A program made the position numbers and the translations under genes. The notes under the pieces were generated by a model that had not been told where the DNA came from, made no database searches, and saw only the letters and a program-made list of their open reading frames with translations. A stretch of 49,820 nucleotides of DNA from positions 1 through 49,820 of the forward strand of contig JAHJJD010000086.1 of assembly GCA_018822845.1 (NCBI GenBank). Reading direction: 5' to 3'. Of this stretch, positions 3,770-11,585 are shown one piece after another (positions within the stretch are counted from its first letter, which is position 1; every line of letters starts with the position of its first letter). The stretch comes from Gammaproteobacteria bacterium. Its GTDB lineage: Bacteria; Pseudomonadota; Gammaproteobacteria; Thiotrichales; Thiotrichaceae.

Positions 3770-7783
<4,014 letters not shown>

Positions 7784-7875
7784 GAGTATCAACCTCGGTG
7801 GACGTATTTATAGCTATTCAGCTTGACAAAGGTGAAAAATGAGATTAAGCCCAGTCGTGGAATTCTTCTGGGTAA

Positions 7876-8162: not shown

Positions 8163-8624
8163 ATGCAAAACAAAACACTGAAACTGGCTTTAGGCACAAC
8201 TTTCGCAGCAGGTATCGCACTCGGCGCGGCACAGGCTATCGCCGACAATCCGTTTGCTTCCGACGCGCTCAGCAGCGGTTACATGCAACTGGCTGAAAAC
8301 GACAAGGCCGGTGAAATGAAATGCGGAGCCAATATGGATGGCAAGTGCGGCGCTGGCATGAAGAGAAGCGCTGAAGGCACCTGCGGCGGCGACATGAAAT
8401 GCCCGGCTGACACCAACGAAGACGGCATGGTCACGAAAGAGGAGTTCATGACCCACCACGAAAAGATGTTTGACGAAGCCGATACCGACAAGGATGGCTC
8501 GCTGAACGCTGATGAACGCAAAGTCATGCACAAGAACATGGAAGGCAAGTGCGGCGCAGCCAAAACAGATGATGCCAAACCAGCCGATGGCGCTACCGCA
8601 GCTCCGGCTGAAGAAAAGAAGTAA
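8163..8624 (+). CDS. hvfA: HvfA-type RiPP metallophore precursor with two EF-hand loops
   Basis: The 153-residue product has an N-terminal signal peptide ending near AQA-IA, then NPFASDALSSGYMQLAE, the sequence style that follows the leader in HvfA precursors. Four repeated Cys-Gly motifs follow: EMKCG (51-55), DGKCG (59-63), EGTCG (71-75) and EGKCG (127-131), plus C80. In the Haemophilus HvfA family, EGKCG cysteines are converted by HvfB/HvfC into oxazolone-thioamide copper ligands. Unusually, two canonical EF-hand calcium loops, starting at D83 and D107, sit between the third and fourth Cys-Gly motifs. The C-terminus is Ala/Pro/Glu/Lys-rich. SD GGAGA at 8149-8153 supports this ATG. hvfB starts 3 bases later. 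Confidence 0.88.
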   Translation: MQNKTLKLALGTTFAAGIALGAAQAIADNPFASDALSSGYMQLAENDKAGEMKCGANMDGKCGAGMKRSAEGTCGGDMKCPADTNEDGMVTKEEFMTHHEKMFDEADTDKDGSLNADERKVMHKNMEGKCGAAKTDDAKPADGATAAPAEEKK

Positions 8625-8627
8625 GCC

Positions 8628-9455
8628 ATGCGCAGCCCTGCCCTCCACGGTGCAGGACTCGGCTTCCGGCGTGACCTGCTGGTTGCGCTGGAAAACCGGG
8701 TTCCGGATTGCATCGATTTTTTTGAAGTCGCCCCGGAAAACTGGATCGGGACGGACAAACGCAGCCAGCAACGTCTGCGCGCTTTCACCGAGCGCTACCC
8801 GTTTGTCTGCCACGGCCTGTCGCTGTCGCTGGGTGGGCTGACGCCACTGGATACTGACTTGCTGGGCAATATCAAGCTGCTCATGCGTGAGCACCACATG
8901 CCGCTGTACACCGAGCATTTGTCATGGTGTTCTGATCACGGCCATCTGTACGATTTACTGCCGATTCCCTTTACTGAAGATGCGGTAAAACACGTCGTCA
9001 GCCGCATCCGCCAAACACAGGATATTCTGGAACAGCGTATCGGCATCGAAAACGCCTCGTTCTACATGCAGGCCCCTATCAGCGAGATGGATGAAGCCAC
9101 TTTCATCAACGCCGTGCTGACAGAATCCGACTGCCTGCTGCATCTGGACGTGAACAATGTCTACGTCAACAGCGTCAACCATGCCTATGACGCGCACGAA
9201 TTCCTGCAAAAACTGCCGAAGGAGCGGGTGGTCTACCTGCACATGGCCGGTCATTACGAGCAAAAGCCCGACCTGCTGATCGACACCCACGGCGCGCCGG
9301 TCATTGACCCGGTGTGGGAACTGCTGGATTTCACCTACCAGCATTTCGGCATCTTCCCCACCCTGCTGGAACGTGATTTCAACATTCCCCCGCTGGCGGA
9401 ACTCGTGCCGGAAGTCGAACAGATCGCCAGCCTGCAAAGGAAACATGCCGCATGA
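8628..9455 (+). CDS. hvfB: DUF692 / MNIO-family RiPP-modifying enzyme HvfB
   Basis: This 275-residue TIM-barrel protein belongs to DUF692, the multinuclear non-heme iron oxidative enzymes that modify cysteines in RiPP precursors. Likely metal ligands are visible in order: H62 (HGLSLSLGG), E96/H97 (YTEHLSW), E141 (IENAS), D174/N176 (LDVNNVYVN), H205 and H209 (HMAGH), D219/H221 (IDTHG) and E248 (LLERD). The full set and normal length suggest an active enzyme. It starts 3 bases after hvfA, and its stop overlaps the hvfC ATG (ATGA), so the three genes form one operon. The probable substrate is the precursor encoded immediately upstream. Confidence 0.93.
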   Translation: MRSPALHGAGLGFRRDLLVALENRVPDCIDFFEVAPENWIGTDKRSQQRLRAFTERYPFVCHGLSLSLGGLTPLDTDLLGNIKLLMREHHMPLYTEHLSWCSDHGHLYDLLPIPFTEDAVKHVVSRIRQTQDILEQRIGIENASFYMQAPISEMDEATFINAVLTESDCLLHLDVNNVYVNSVNHAYDAHEFLQKLPKERVVYLHMAGHYEQKPDLLIDTHGAPVIDPVWELLDFTYQHFGIFPTLLERDFNIPPLAELVPEVEQIASLQRKHAA

Positions 9456-10249
9456 ACGCTACCGAAACTTTCCAGCGCACTTTCGCCGCCCACTTGCGCA
9501 ACCCGGAGGCCAATCCGCCCCCACAAGGCGTGGATGCGGAGCGCGCTGGCGTCTACGTCGAGCTGCTGTTCAACAATGTGGAAGATTTCCTCAGCGGCTG
9601 CTTTCCGGTAATACGCAAAATTCTCGACGATGGGCAATGGAATGCGCTGGTTCGCCAGTTTTATGCGGAACATGCCTGTCAATCGCCCTATTTTCGCGAG
9701 ATTCCTGCCGGGTTTGTGGAATGGCTGACAGGACGGCTTCCCTTCGACTCCCTTCGACTCCGCTCAGGGAACACCGCTCAGGGAACACTATTCGGTGAAC
9801 GGTTTCCTTTCCTGCTGGAACTGGCGCATTACGAGTGGGTGGAAGTGCCGCTTGCGCTGGATGATAGCGAAATCGACTGGAGTAGCATTGACCCGGACGG
9901 CGATTTGCTGGCAGGCAAACCGGTGCTGAACCCGGTCATGCTGCTGCAAAGTTACCAGTACCCCGTGCACCGTATCGGCCCCGATTTCCTGCCCACCGAA
10001 CCGGAGCCAACCCATTTGGTGTTGCTGCGTGACCAGCACGGCAAAATCCAGTTTGTCAGCCTGAATGTAACCACTGCCCGGTTGGTGCAGTTGTTGCAGG
10101 AAAACCTGGATACGCGCACGGCTATCTTTCAGCTTGCCCAGGAAATGCAGCATCCTGACCCTGAGCAGCTGATGCAGTTCGGCCAGCAGATACTGGAACA
10201 GTTCAAAACACAGTTTTTGGTGCTGGGAACAGCCATCCGTCCGCGATAA
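9452..10249 (+). CDS. hvfC: DUF2063 partner protein HvfC of the RiPP-modifying complex
   Basis: The 265-residue protein has the N-terminal DUF2063 domain (about residues 5-95, with FQRTFAAHLRNP and YVELLFNNVEDFLSGCFPV), which serves as precursor-recognition partner of DUF692 enzymes. The C-terminal half is a less conserved domain that begins near FPFLLELAHYEW. Between the two lies the short stretch FDSLRLRSGNTAQGT, encoded by an inserted palindromic repeat (9740-9787) and probably not original to the protein. The insert is 48 bases, so the frame is kept. Translation is coupled to hvfB. No DoxX-type hvfD gene follows, unlike some related operons. Confidence 0.9.
   Translation: MNATETFQRTFAAHLRNPEANPPPQGVDAERAGVYVELLFNNVEDFLSGCFPVIRKILDDGQWNALVRQFYAEHACQSPYFREIPAGFVEWLTGRLPFDSLRLRSGNTAQGTLFGERFPFLLELAHYEWVEVPLALDDSEIDWSSIDPDGDLLAGKPVLNPVMLLQSYQYPVHRIGPDFLPTEPEPTHLVLLRDQHGKIQFVSLNVTTARLVQLLQENLDTRTAIFQLAQEMQHPDPEQLMQFGQQILEQFKTQFLVLGTAIRPR
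9740..9787. repeat. Nested copy of a 24-base palindromic repeat inside hvfC
   Basis: The 48 bases read CCCTTCGACT, then a complete unit CCCTTCGACT+CCGCTCAGGGAACA, then CCGCTCAGGGAACA. The outer halves together make a second identical 24-base unit, so one copy appears inserted into the middle of another. Each unit can fold through its CCCT/AGGG arms. The whole block is translated in frame within hvfC. Confidence 0.85.
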
Positions 10250-10335: not shown

Positions 10336-10557
10336 ATGAACCATCCCCAATCGAGACTGGCGGCTTACGCCATGATTTCCCTTTCCACCCTGATGATTTC
10401 AGGCTGTCTGGGTGTGCAACCTGCCAAGGAAGAACCGCAGGCCAAAAGCTTACAGGAAATTGCGGCTGAAGCGATGAATTCCAAAGGCAAGCTGACCAGG
10501 GAGCAAATCAATGCCCTGATCGCGGCGAACGCCAAATGTACACCCGATAAAATGTAA
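10336..10557 (+). CDS. Small lipoprotein of unknown function
   Basis: The 73-residue product begins MNHPQSRLAAYAM and has a hydrophobic stretch ending in the lipobox LMISGC, so it should be lipidated on C27 and anchored to a membrane on the periplasmic side. The mature part is only about 47 residues, polar, with one further cysteine near the C-terminus (AKCTPDKM). No family is recognised. A GTG at 10327 would add three residues before the signal, but the ATG gives a conventional signal peptide. It lies 86 bases after hvfC and 14 bases before the AraC-type regulator, so it may be co-transcribed with either. Confidence 0.7.
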   Translation: MNHPQSRLAAYAMISLSTLMISGCLGVQPAKEEPQAKSLQEIAAEAMNSKGKLTREQINALIAANAKCTPDKM

Positions 10558-10571
10558 GCGAGAGCTAACCC

Positions 10572-11585
10572 ATGCACATGCTTGCAGTCCTGCTATCCGG
10601 CTTTTCCGTCTTCAGCGCCCTGATCATGACGCTGACGCATTTCCGCTGTGATAACTACAAGGGGCAGTTACTGGCGCAAGGCATGGGCGTCATCCTGCTG
10701 CTGACACTGGTCGGCTTGCAACTTACCCATTTTTTCTGGTTGCAGGGCACGGCGGACTTCGTGCACACAGCGTATTATCAGGTATTGCTGTTTGCCGTGG
10801 CCCCGGCATTTTACCTGTTCAGCAAGCCGTTGTTACAGGCAGACAGTATTCTCCATCCCTATCAGCTGCTGCATTTGTTACCGGTGCTGGCAGCACCTTT
10901 ACTGCCATTCAGTCTGGCCTTGCCGCTGGCATTTGCCGTAGGCGCAGGTTACTTGCTGTGGCTGGCGTACAGCATTCACGCCCTGCGCTCGCAGCGTAGC
11001 CGCTTCCGGCTGGAACTGGCCATCCTCGGCACGGTGTTTGCCATTGCGCTGGCGGTGCTGCTGCTCGGGCTGGGCTTACCCCTGATTCCGGAAAAGCTGT
11101 TTTTCACATTGTATGCCAGCGCCATCGGCATTGCCTTCCTGCTGGTCAGTATTGTGCTCAGCCTCGCCCCGCAACTGTCTACCGAAGTGGCGGAAGCCGC
11201 GCGCGAAACCTACGCCGTTTCCACCCTCGGCAATGTCGATTGCGCACACATGCTGGTGCGGCTGGGCAACCTGATGGATCAGGAACAGGTGTTTCAGAAC
11301 CCTGACATGGACTTGCCCACGCTGGCGGAACGCATGCAGCTAACGCCTCACCAGTTGTCGGAACTGATCAATACCCGTCTCGGCAAAGGCTTTTCACGCT
11401 ATATCCGCGAGTACCGGGTGGAAGCAGCGGAAGACTTGCTGCTGGACAAGCCATCCATGCCCGTGCTGACGGTGGGGATGGAAGTCGGCTTTACCTCGCA
11501 GTCGAATTTCTACCAAGCCTTCCGCGAAATGACCGGGATGACGCCGGGGCAATACCGGAAAGTGCATCTCCAGGTAGCAGCGTAA
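10572..11585 (+). CDS. Membrane-anchored AraC-family transcriptional regulator
   Basis: The 337-residue protein has about seven hydrophobic segments in residues 1-205 and a C-terminal AraC-type double helix-turn-helix (about 235-333). The latter includes LSELINTRLGKGFSRYIREYRV and the family signature region VGFTSQSNFYQAFREMTGMTPGQYR. Such fusions are thought to sense a membrane or periplasmic signal and act directly on DNA, but the signal here is unknown. It starts 14 bases after the small lipoprotein gene and follows the hvfABC operon, so it is a candidate regulator of that system. The next gene is on the opposite strand, its stop 3 bases past this one. Confidence 0.85.
   Translation: MHMLAVLLSGFSVFSALIMTLTHFRCDNYKGQLLAQGMGVILLLTLVGLQLTHFFWLQGTADFVHTAYYQVLLFAVAPAFYLFSKPLLQADSILHPYQLLHLLPVLAAPLLPFSLALPLAFAVGAGYLLWLAYSIHALRSQRSRFRLELAILGTVFAIALAVLLLGLGLPLIPEKLFFTLYASAIGIAFLLVSIVLSLAPQLSTEVAEAARETYAVSTLGNVDCAHMLVRLGNLMDQEQVFQNPDMDLPTLAERMQLTPHQLSELINTRLGKGFSRYIREYRVEAAEDLLLDKPSMPVLTVGMEVGFTSQSNFYQAFREMTGMTPGQYRKVHLQVAA

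Follow-up and report, generated by a model that had tools for sequence, protein, structure and literature searches.

What is a pair of calcium-binding loops doing inside the precursor of a peptide some of whose relatives bind copper? The question is posed by three tightly packed + strand genes at positions 8163-10249 of the window, as we call the whole 49,820-nucleotide stretch of Thiotrichaceae DNA analysed here. They encode, in this order, a precursor, an MNIO enzyme of the HvfB family and a partner of the HvfC family, with a 3-base gap between hvfA and hvfB and then a 4-base overlap between hvfB and hvfC. A sequence-only reading had taken them for an HvfABC-type RiPP operon; these coordinates and the gene order hold, and curated models score above cut-off for the precursor motif, HvfB and HvfC.

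An hvfABC operon with an EF-hand precursor

The hvfA-like gene (8163..8624, +) encodes an EF-hand type precursor of 153 aa, recognised above cut-off by EF-hand_1, EF-hand_5 and NF050137, the model of the HvfA KCG motif. The product of the second gene (8628..9455, +; 275 aa) belongs to DUF692 (PF05114, 349 bits) and, with 416.3 bits against the NF003818 cut-off of 360, qualifies as an HvfB-type MNIO; among solved structures its top match is the DUF692 protein 3bww. The third product (9452..10249, +; 265 aa) combines DUF2063 with NGO1945_C, reaches 277.9 bits with NF050145 (cut-off 142), which makes it an HvfC-type partner (PME1), and has 3dee as its top structure. Taken jointly with the Ca2+-folded Cu(I)-buffer course proposed below, it is quite likely that 8163-10249 represents the Buf_EGKCG/oxazolin group, as an hvfABC operon of its subclass with EF-hand precursors.

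By eye, the precursor starts with Lys, a hydrophobic stretch and A-I-A ahead of D28, so that residues 1-27 (8163..8243, +) are likely a Sec signal peptide. Behind it lies an F-x4-L-xx-G-Y element (residues 31-40, 8253..8282, +). The pattern F-x4-[LM]-x1-2-G-Y occurs closely behind the signal peptide in 30/35 KCG precursors adjoining HvfB genes in other genomes, with or without EF-hands, and is a possible docking site for HvfC.

The precursor contains five cysteines. The four xxxCG motifs of the sequence-only reading are all located: EMKCG (C54, 8313..8327, +), DGKCG (C62, 8337..8351, +), EGTCG (C74, 8373..8387, +) and EGKCG (C130, 8541..8555, +). None of 20,000 shuffles of the precursor contained four such motifs, and none contained two EF loops. 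The fifth cysteine, C80 in DMKCP (8391..8405, +), lies three residues before the first loop. The sequence-only reading had named it with the other four as a residue on which to look for mass loss, but it precedes Pro rather than Gly and may be a non-substrate. The motifs are moreover degenerate, the exact EGKCG being present in one of four, a point against the copper-buffer reading. NF050137 gives 24.1 bits (cut-off 19.5), which establishes the KCG motif, while the full-length HvfA equivalog NF050188 (cut-off 95) gives no match at E up to 1. This model also leaves six other EF types below its cut-off, three scoring 27-45 bits and three without a match. By these profiles the window precursor falls into the wider KCG-motif group and outside HvfA in the strict sense; its degenerate motifs and the interrupting EF pair probably account for the missing NF050188 match.

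Loop 1 covers residues 83-94 (8409..8444, +) and loop 2 residues 107-118 (8481..8516, +). Both have the canonical 12-residue form with Asp, Gly and Glu at positions 1, 6 and 12 (D83, G88, E94 and D107, G112, E118), and these six residues are invariant across a 16-row alignment. The PROSITE-type pattern coded in our script agrees with Pfam, where EF-hand_1 (5.2e-08) and EF-hand_5 (1.7e-07; PF13202, 30.9 bits against 25.9) exceed their cut-offs with two stretches each. Three Cys-Gly motifs stand ahead of the pair and the last one, the EGKCG of C130, behind it, and the earlier claim of two textbook EF-hand loops at this place is upheld. Two PF13202 stretches in a KCG-type precursor whose gene lies ahead of an MNIO gene are the features of the type named Buf_EGKCG|EF-hand_5.

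AlphaFold2, run with 19 sequences, models residues 81-130 with a pLDDT of 84-97 by ten-residue blocks. The order in this region is loop, helix 92-106, loop, helix 116-135, so that loop 1 lacks a modelled entering helix; pLDDT falls below 50 across most of residues 39-76, leaving the N-terminal arm mostly disordered. The model carries no information on metal or modified residues, and a Foldseek search with it gave no significant match. Of the idea that a folded domain is flanked by modified cysteines, the part that stands is the EF-hand core between cysteine motifs, backed by the pLDDT values and by the lowest pN/pS of four precursor regions; modification of the cysteines is predicted, less surely for C80.

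Conservation within the genus

A precursor homologue was found in 13/15 other genomes of the genus. The 14 precursors gathered, our own included, all have a loop spacing of 24 residues, cysteines before and after the pair and, three residues ahead of loop 1, a Cys-Pro. Pairwise comparison of these sequences (91 pairs) gave a pN/pS of 0.14 for the EF pair, 0.27 for the N-terminal motifs, 0.39 for the signal and 0.48 for the tail, values of which the order alone is meaningful at the high pS (0.54-0.71). Among the four regions, constraint is strongest on the EF pair.

An HvfB frame lies at most 1.5 kb from the precursor in 11 of these 14 cases. In G058 it is found 1.6-1.7 kb downstream with another gene in between. 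No HvfB frame occurs within 1.5 kb of the precursors of G062 and G048, which speaks against the copper-buffer reading; in G048 none appears in 3.9 kb downstream, and two MNIO genes are located about 150 kb from the precursor.

All eight genus operon regions read have nrdA upstream. Five follow the order hvfA-hvfB-hvfC-small lipoprotein-AraC, three of these with a second KCG precursor behind hvfC. The G058 region shows hvfB-hvfC-lipoprotein and ends before AraC, G050 has hvfABC without the small lipoprotein and AraC genes, and the G048 region lacks hvfB. Two genomes of a sister genus carry a DoxX-like gene between hvfA and hvfB (Pfam was run on one); DoxX is described as a core gene of such clusters in the relevant part of PMC12452194. 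The flanks of the window operon (nrdA, the small lipoprotein and an AraC-type regulator gene at 10572-11585) give no hint of copper, another point against a copper buffer.

Distribution of EF-hand precursors

At the HvfB cut-off of NF003818, 398 genomes of the phylum yielded 41 places in 39 genomes. A KCG precursor lies upstream in 35 of the 40 places outside our own genome, and 9 of these 35 precursors contain an EF pair. EF-hand precursors are therefore a sizeable share of the KCG RiPP group, 26 of the 35 being without the pair. Motifs also follow the pair, as in the window, in four of the nine (L032, L045, L050 and L055); in the other five (L043, L044, L046, L057 and L058) they solely precede it. 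The five HvfB-type genes without a recognisable KCG precursor upstream are L047, L048, L049, L052 and L053, and two of the genomes concerned, G364 and G156, possess another HvfB that is accompanied by an EF-hand precursor. A further 48 MNIO places, one of them in our own genome, score below the cut-off; the 20 that were fetched include one KCG-type precursor, without EF-hands.

In an enzyme tree made of 23 neighbours of EF precursors, 26 neighbours of others and 3 outgroup members (52 in all), the EF label changes five times, four of these changes being forced by well-supported branches. This indicates that EF-hands have been gained or lost repeatedly.

Named genomes were also scanned with the EF-loop pattern and the best 80 of 106 loci kept. 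Of these 80 loci, 12 include an MNIO gene within the DNA fetched; the EF protein has a KCG-type motif in 10 of them, as against 3 of the other 68 (Fisher p 1e-8), a contrast somewhat biased by the query alignment, which itself contained KCG motifs. Here an MNIO gene counts as absent if none lies within about 1.5 kb on each side for loci from the genome searches, or up to 3 kb for loci from the pattern scan. The three positives without an MNIO gene are L088 (Thiogranum) and the lipoprotein-like L120 and L136 (Bacteroidota). Two of the 12 MNIO neighbours, L129 and L130, encode an EF protein without any Cys, which runs against the copper-buffer reading. Some rows overlap: L019 and L020 are one gene, of which L020 was left out; L055 and L089, equal in length, seem to be one contig; and L088 and L205 are possibly one gene.

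The two Bacteroidota genes (L120:2860-3804 and L136:2659-3198) combine EF-hand and KCG motifs with a lipoprotein-like start, with no MNIO in the fetched DNA. Both adjoin similar-looking oxidoreductase genes, in L136 by Pfam a GMC oxidoreductase and gluconate 2-dehydrogenase subunit 3.

A cysteine at a near-fixed distance from loop 1

Among 37 EF types gathered, the distance from the last Cys ahead of loop 1 to the first Asp of the loop is 6 residues in 18, 3 residues in 14, which are those of the window's genus, and 9 residues in 5. In a further 16 EF types, a set that left out the already counted L178, L181 and L193, the distance is 6 in 12 and 8, 9, 16 and 19 in one each. Kinship among the rows, a few of which repeat one gene, inflates the count. 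Cysteines stand on both sides of the EF pair in 30/37, the remaining 7 having none after the pair, and 35/37 contain more than one. The two exceptions, L086 and L087 of Nitrosospira, keep the EF pair but have just one Cys, placed six residues ahead of loop 1; the HvfB genes beside them are 64.6% and 63.3% identical to that of the window, and HvfA models do not match their precursors. The near-fixed place of this cysteine suggests that the residue matters for the EF domain.

Precursors may also stand apart from the enzyme. In the G533 family, a match was found in 11/20 genomes. The 10 EF precursors read there have Cys on both sides of the pair, and the 1-1.5 kb fetched with them contains no MNIO gene. 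MNIO genes are nevertheless present in all 7 of these genomes that were tested, and the three MNIO loci read (L214, L215 and L217) are ordinary hvfABC operons with a plain KCG precursor. With a plain-precursor operon and a separate EF precursor in one genome, one HvfBC pair probably serves both types. Stand-alone precursor genes, with modification in trans as a possibility, are noted in the passages of PMC12452194 on such clusters.

Relation to known systems

The literature compared here consists of parts of PMC12452194, PMC4053335, PMC9132961, PMC11559002, PMC13419390, PMC13097082 and PMC13171946. The sequence-only reading had left to a survey whether EF-hand precursors already form a described subclass with known function. 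The class is in print: in its relevant part, PMC12452194 (Antoine et al. 2025) describes a second Buf_EGKCG/oxazolin precursor type with two EF-hand_5 domains, 'Buf_EGKCG|EF-hand_5', and suggests for it Ca2+ homeostasis or signalling besides copper, with EfhP as example; neither there nor in the passages on EfhP is a molecular function given for the modified form. The EF-hand KCG precursor class is thus already known and the window is a further example. Precursors of this type share with ours export, KCG motifs, two EF-hands and adjoining MNIO and DUF2063 genes. In the wording available from that paper, however, the EF-hands are fused C-terminally to a short EGKCG domain, whereas in the window and in 4/9 surveyed precursors motifs also follow the pair. 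Small additions of the present work are the count of such two-sided precursors, the form with just one Cys, the evidence that EF-hands came or went several times, and the cysteine at a near-constant distance from loop 1.

EfhP (PA4107) of Pseudomonas aeruginosa is alike in the parts of the papers that describe it, with two EF-hands, a predicted periplasmic location, EGKCG repeats and an apparent DUF692/DUF2063 operon; the adjoining DUF692 and DUF2063 genes appear in the 2014 account (PMC4053335). The same account has its loops begin at residues 88 and 115, a spacing of 27 against 24 in the window. Its Kd for Ca2+ is given as 13.7 uM (PMC9132961), and the passages of PMC11559002 on EfhP note the EGKCG repeats and propose Ca2+/iron sensing. 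Among the papers searched, 'EF-hand' and 'EGKCG' appear together only in PMC11559002 and PMC12452194.

Oxazolin (HvfA/HvfBC, Haemophilus influenzae) and fontiphorin (FonA/FonBC) share with the window the enzyme families NF003818 and NF050145 and the KCG motif. Their precursors are described in the sections at hand as carrying EGKCG repeats, unlike the degenerate motifs of the window with an EF pair among them, and the term EF-hand has a count of 0 in PMC13419390 and PMC13097082. According to the relevant sections of these two papers, the HvfBC product is a 5-thiooxazole, with 4 Da lost per Cys. For the copper-binding groups that the sequence-only reading ascribed to HvfB and HvfC, this is the current assignment. 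HvfA minus its signal peptide is reported in the corresponding part of PMC13419390 to be poorly modified. Within the literature sampled, we found no report of an EF-hand KCG precursor being modified or binding copper.

Two other families are more distant. Bufferin Buf1 (DUF2282) has an enzyme of the same superfamily but another precursor family; the one encoded in our own genome, at L001, has an enzyme of 261.7 bits, under the HvfB cut-off of 360. Lanmodulin (LanM) shows a weak profile similarity to the precursor (31.5 bits; NF053806 cut-off 135), which places the precursor outside that family, and the LanM structure 8fns aligns to the model in Foldseek over 37 columns at 1.3 A, not significantly (E 2.4). 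LanM has four EF loops, Pro at loop position 2 and a short distance between loops. The window precursor has two loops and Thr at position 2, and its 24-residue loop distance is common in other bacterial EF-hand proteins among the best 80 of 106 named-genome loci.

Possible function

By analogy with these relatives, the most likely function is that of a periplasmic, Ca2+-folded Cu(I) buffer. The precursor would be synthesised in the cytosol, and the low level of free Ca2+ there would keep its EF pair unfolded. HvfC would bind the region of the signal peptide and the FxxxxLxxGY element and offer the arms to HvfB, which would oxidise C54, C62, C74 and C130 to 5-thiooxazoles with a loss of 4 Da each. 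The modified product would leave via Sec and its signal be cut off; in the periplasm, Ca2+ would make the EF pair adopt a small loop-helix-loop-helix fold, a core flanked by N- and C-terminal thiooxazole arms, and the folded product would bind and buffer Cu(I). Genes, motifs, architecture, family membership and conservation are observed here. The thiooxazole chemistry, the signal-peptide-dependent modification and the copper binding are borrowed from oxazolin, fontiphorin and bufferins, and Ca2+ binding from EfhP; we infer the modification of the window precursor, the cysteines concerned, the binding of both metals and the folding switch.

EfhP, the best studied relative, is tied to Ca2+ and iron uptake and not to copper, which counts against this proposal. 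The product could instead be mainly a periplasmic Ca2+ sensor of the EfhP kind that alters gene expression, its cysteines, modified or not, sensing redox or a metal such as iron. This we consider unlikely. EfhP is built from the same domains and lies in the same operon context, with the Kd quoted above, and is required for Ca2+ regulation of iron uptake in the parts of PMC9132961, PMC4053335 and PMC11559002 concerned; the EF pair is also the most constrained region, and the two Nitrosospira versions retain it with a single Cys. Yet more than one Cys in 35/37 EF types is what would be expected of a chelator, and no sensor partner is apparent, the AraC-type gene having no tie to the precursor. 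Alternatively, the EF pair might merely aid solubility or export, as a Ca2+-dependent fold that forms only once Sec has exported the protein and plays no part in copper chemistry. Such an aid, possible if somewhat doubtful, agrees with the scatter of EF types on the HvfB tree (five changes, four forced), with the 26/35 KCG precursors beside HvfB genes that manage without the pair and with the coexistence of plain and EF precursors per genome in the G533 family, but the near-fixed distance from Cys to loop would be unexpected of a mere tag.

The same distance (6, 3 or 9 residues in 18, 14 and 5 of 37, and 6 in 12 of 16 more), together with Cys on both sides of the pair in 30/37, would fit a gate in which folding joins the N- and C-terminal thiooxazoles, or sets one of them beside loop 1, and so makes Cu(I) affinity Ca2+-dependent. 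We judge such gating quite improbable: the nearest Cys in the window's genus, at three residues, is a Cys-Pro that may be unmodified, there are exceptions at 8, 16 and 19, in 7/37 no Cys follows the pair, the N-terminal arm is mostly disordered in the AlphaFold2 models, and the rows counted are related, a few being the same gene. That EF-hand HvfA is a Ca2+-assembled copper site, with a thiooxazole at a set distance from the first loop (six residues in most lineages examined, and on the sole cysteine of the two Nitrosospira proteins), Ca2+ forming or tuning the Cu(I) site and copper being reported or released according to periplasmic calcium, is offered as a speculation with a slim chance of being right. 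The small size of the operon, its few cysteines and the single-Cys Nitrosospira forms would make a coupling of Ca2+ and thiooxazole copper binding directly testable, and if it were true, EfhP-type calcium signalling and copper RiPPs would become one subject.

Additional MNIO systems and neighbouring genes

On contig C21 of our own genome, a second MNIO gene (L001) accompanies a DUF2282 (Buf1 bufferin) precursor (PF10048, 79.3 bits), so that this organism has two different MNIO systems. Short second KCG precursors without EF-hands occur in genus relatives (L166:4021-4377, L167:4122-4403, L173:2213-2488 (-), L172:3278-3601 and L212:1779-2429 (-)), behind hvfC in three loci, divergent to hvfB in L212 and elsewhere in L172, some with lipoprotein-like signals; the operon of the window has none. 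G061 has hvfBC with a short EF-less KCG precursor, and an EF precursor looked for in this genome was not found. The small lipoprotein-like gene of the window (10336-10557, +) recurs behind hvfC in 6/8 genus regions and matches no family above cut-off. Upstream, the ribonucleotide reductase large-subunit gene (3770-7792, -) has an apparent intein mid-frame, with LAGLIDADG_3 above cut-off at 34.4 bits and Hint_2 just below at 26.4.
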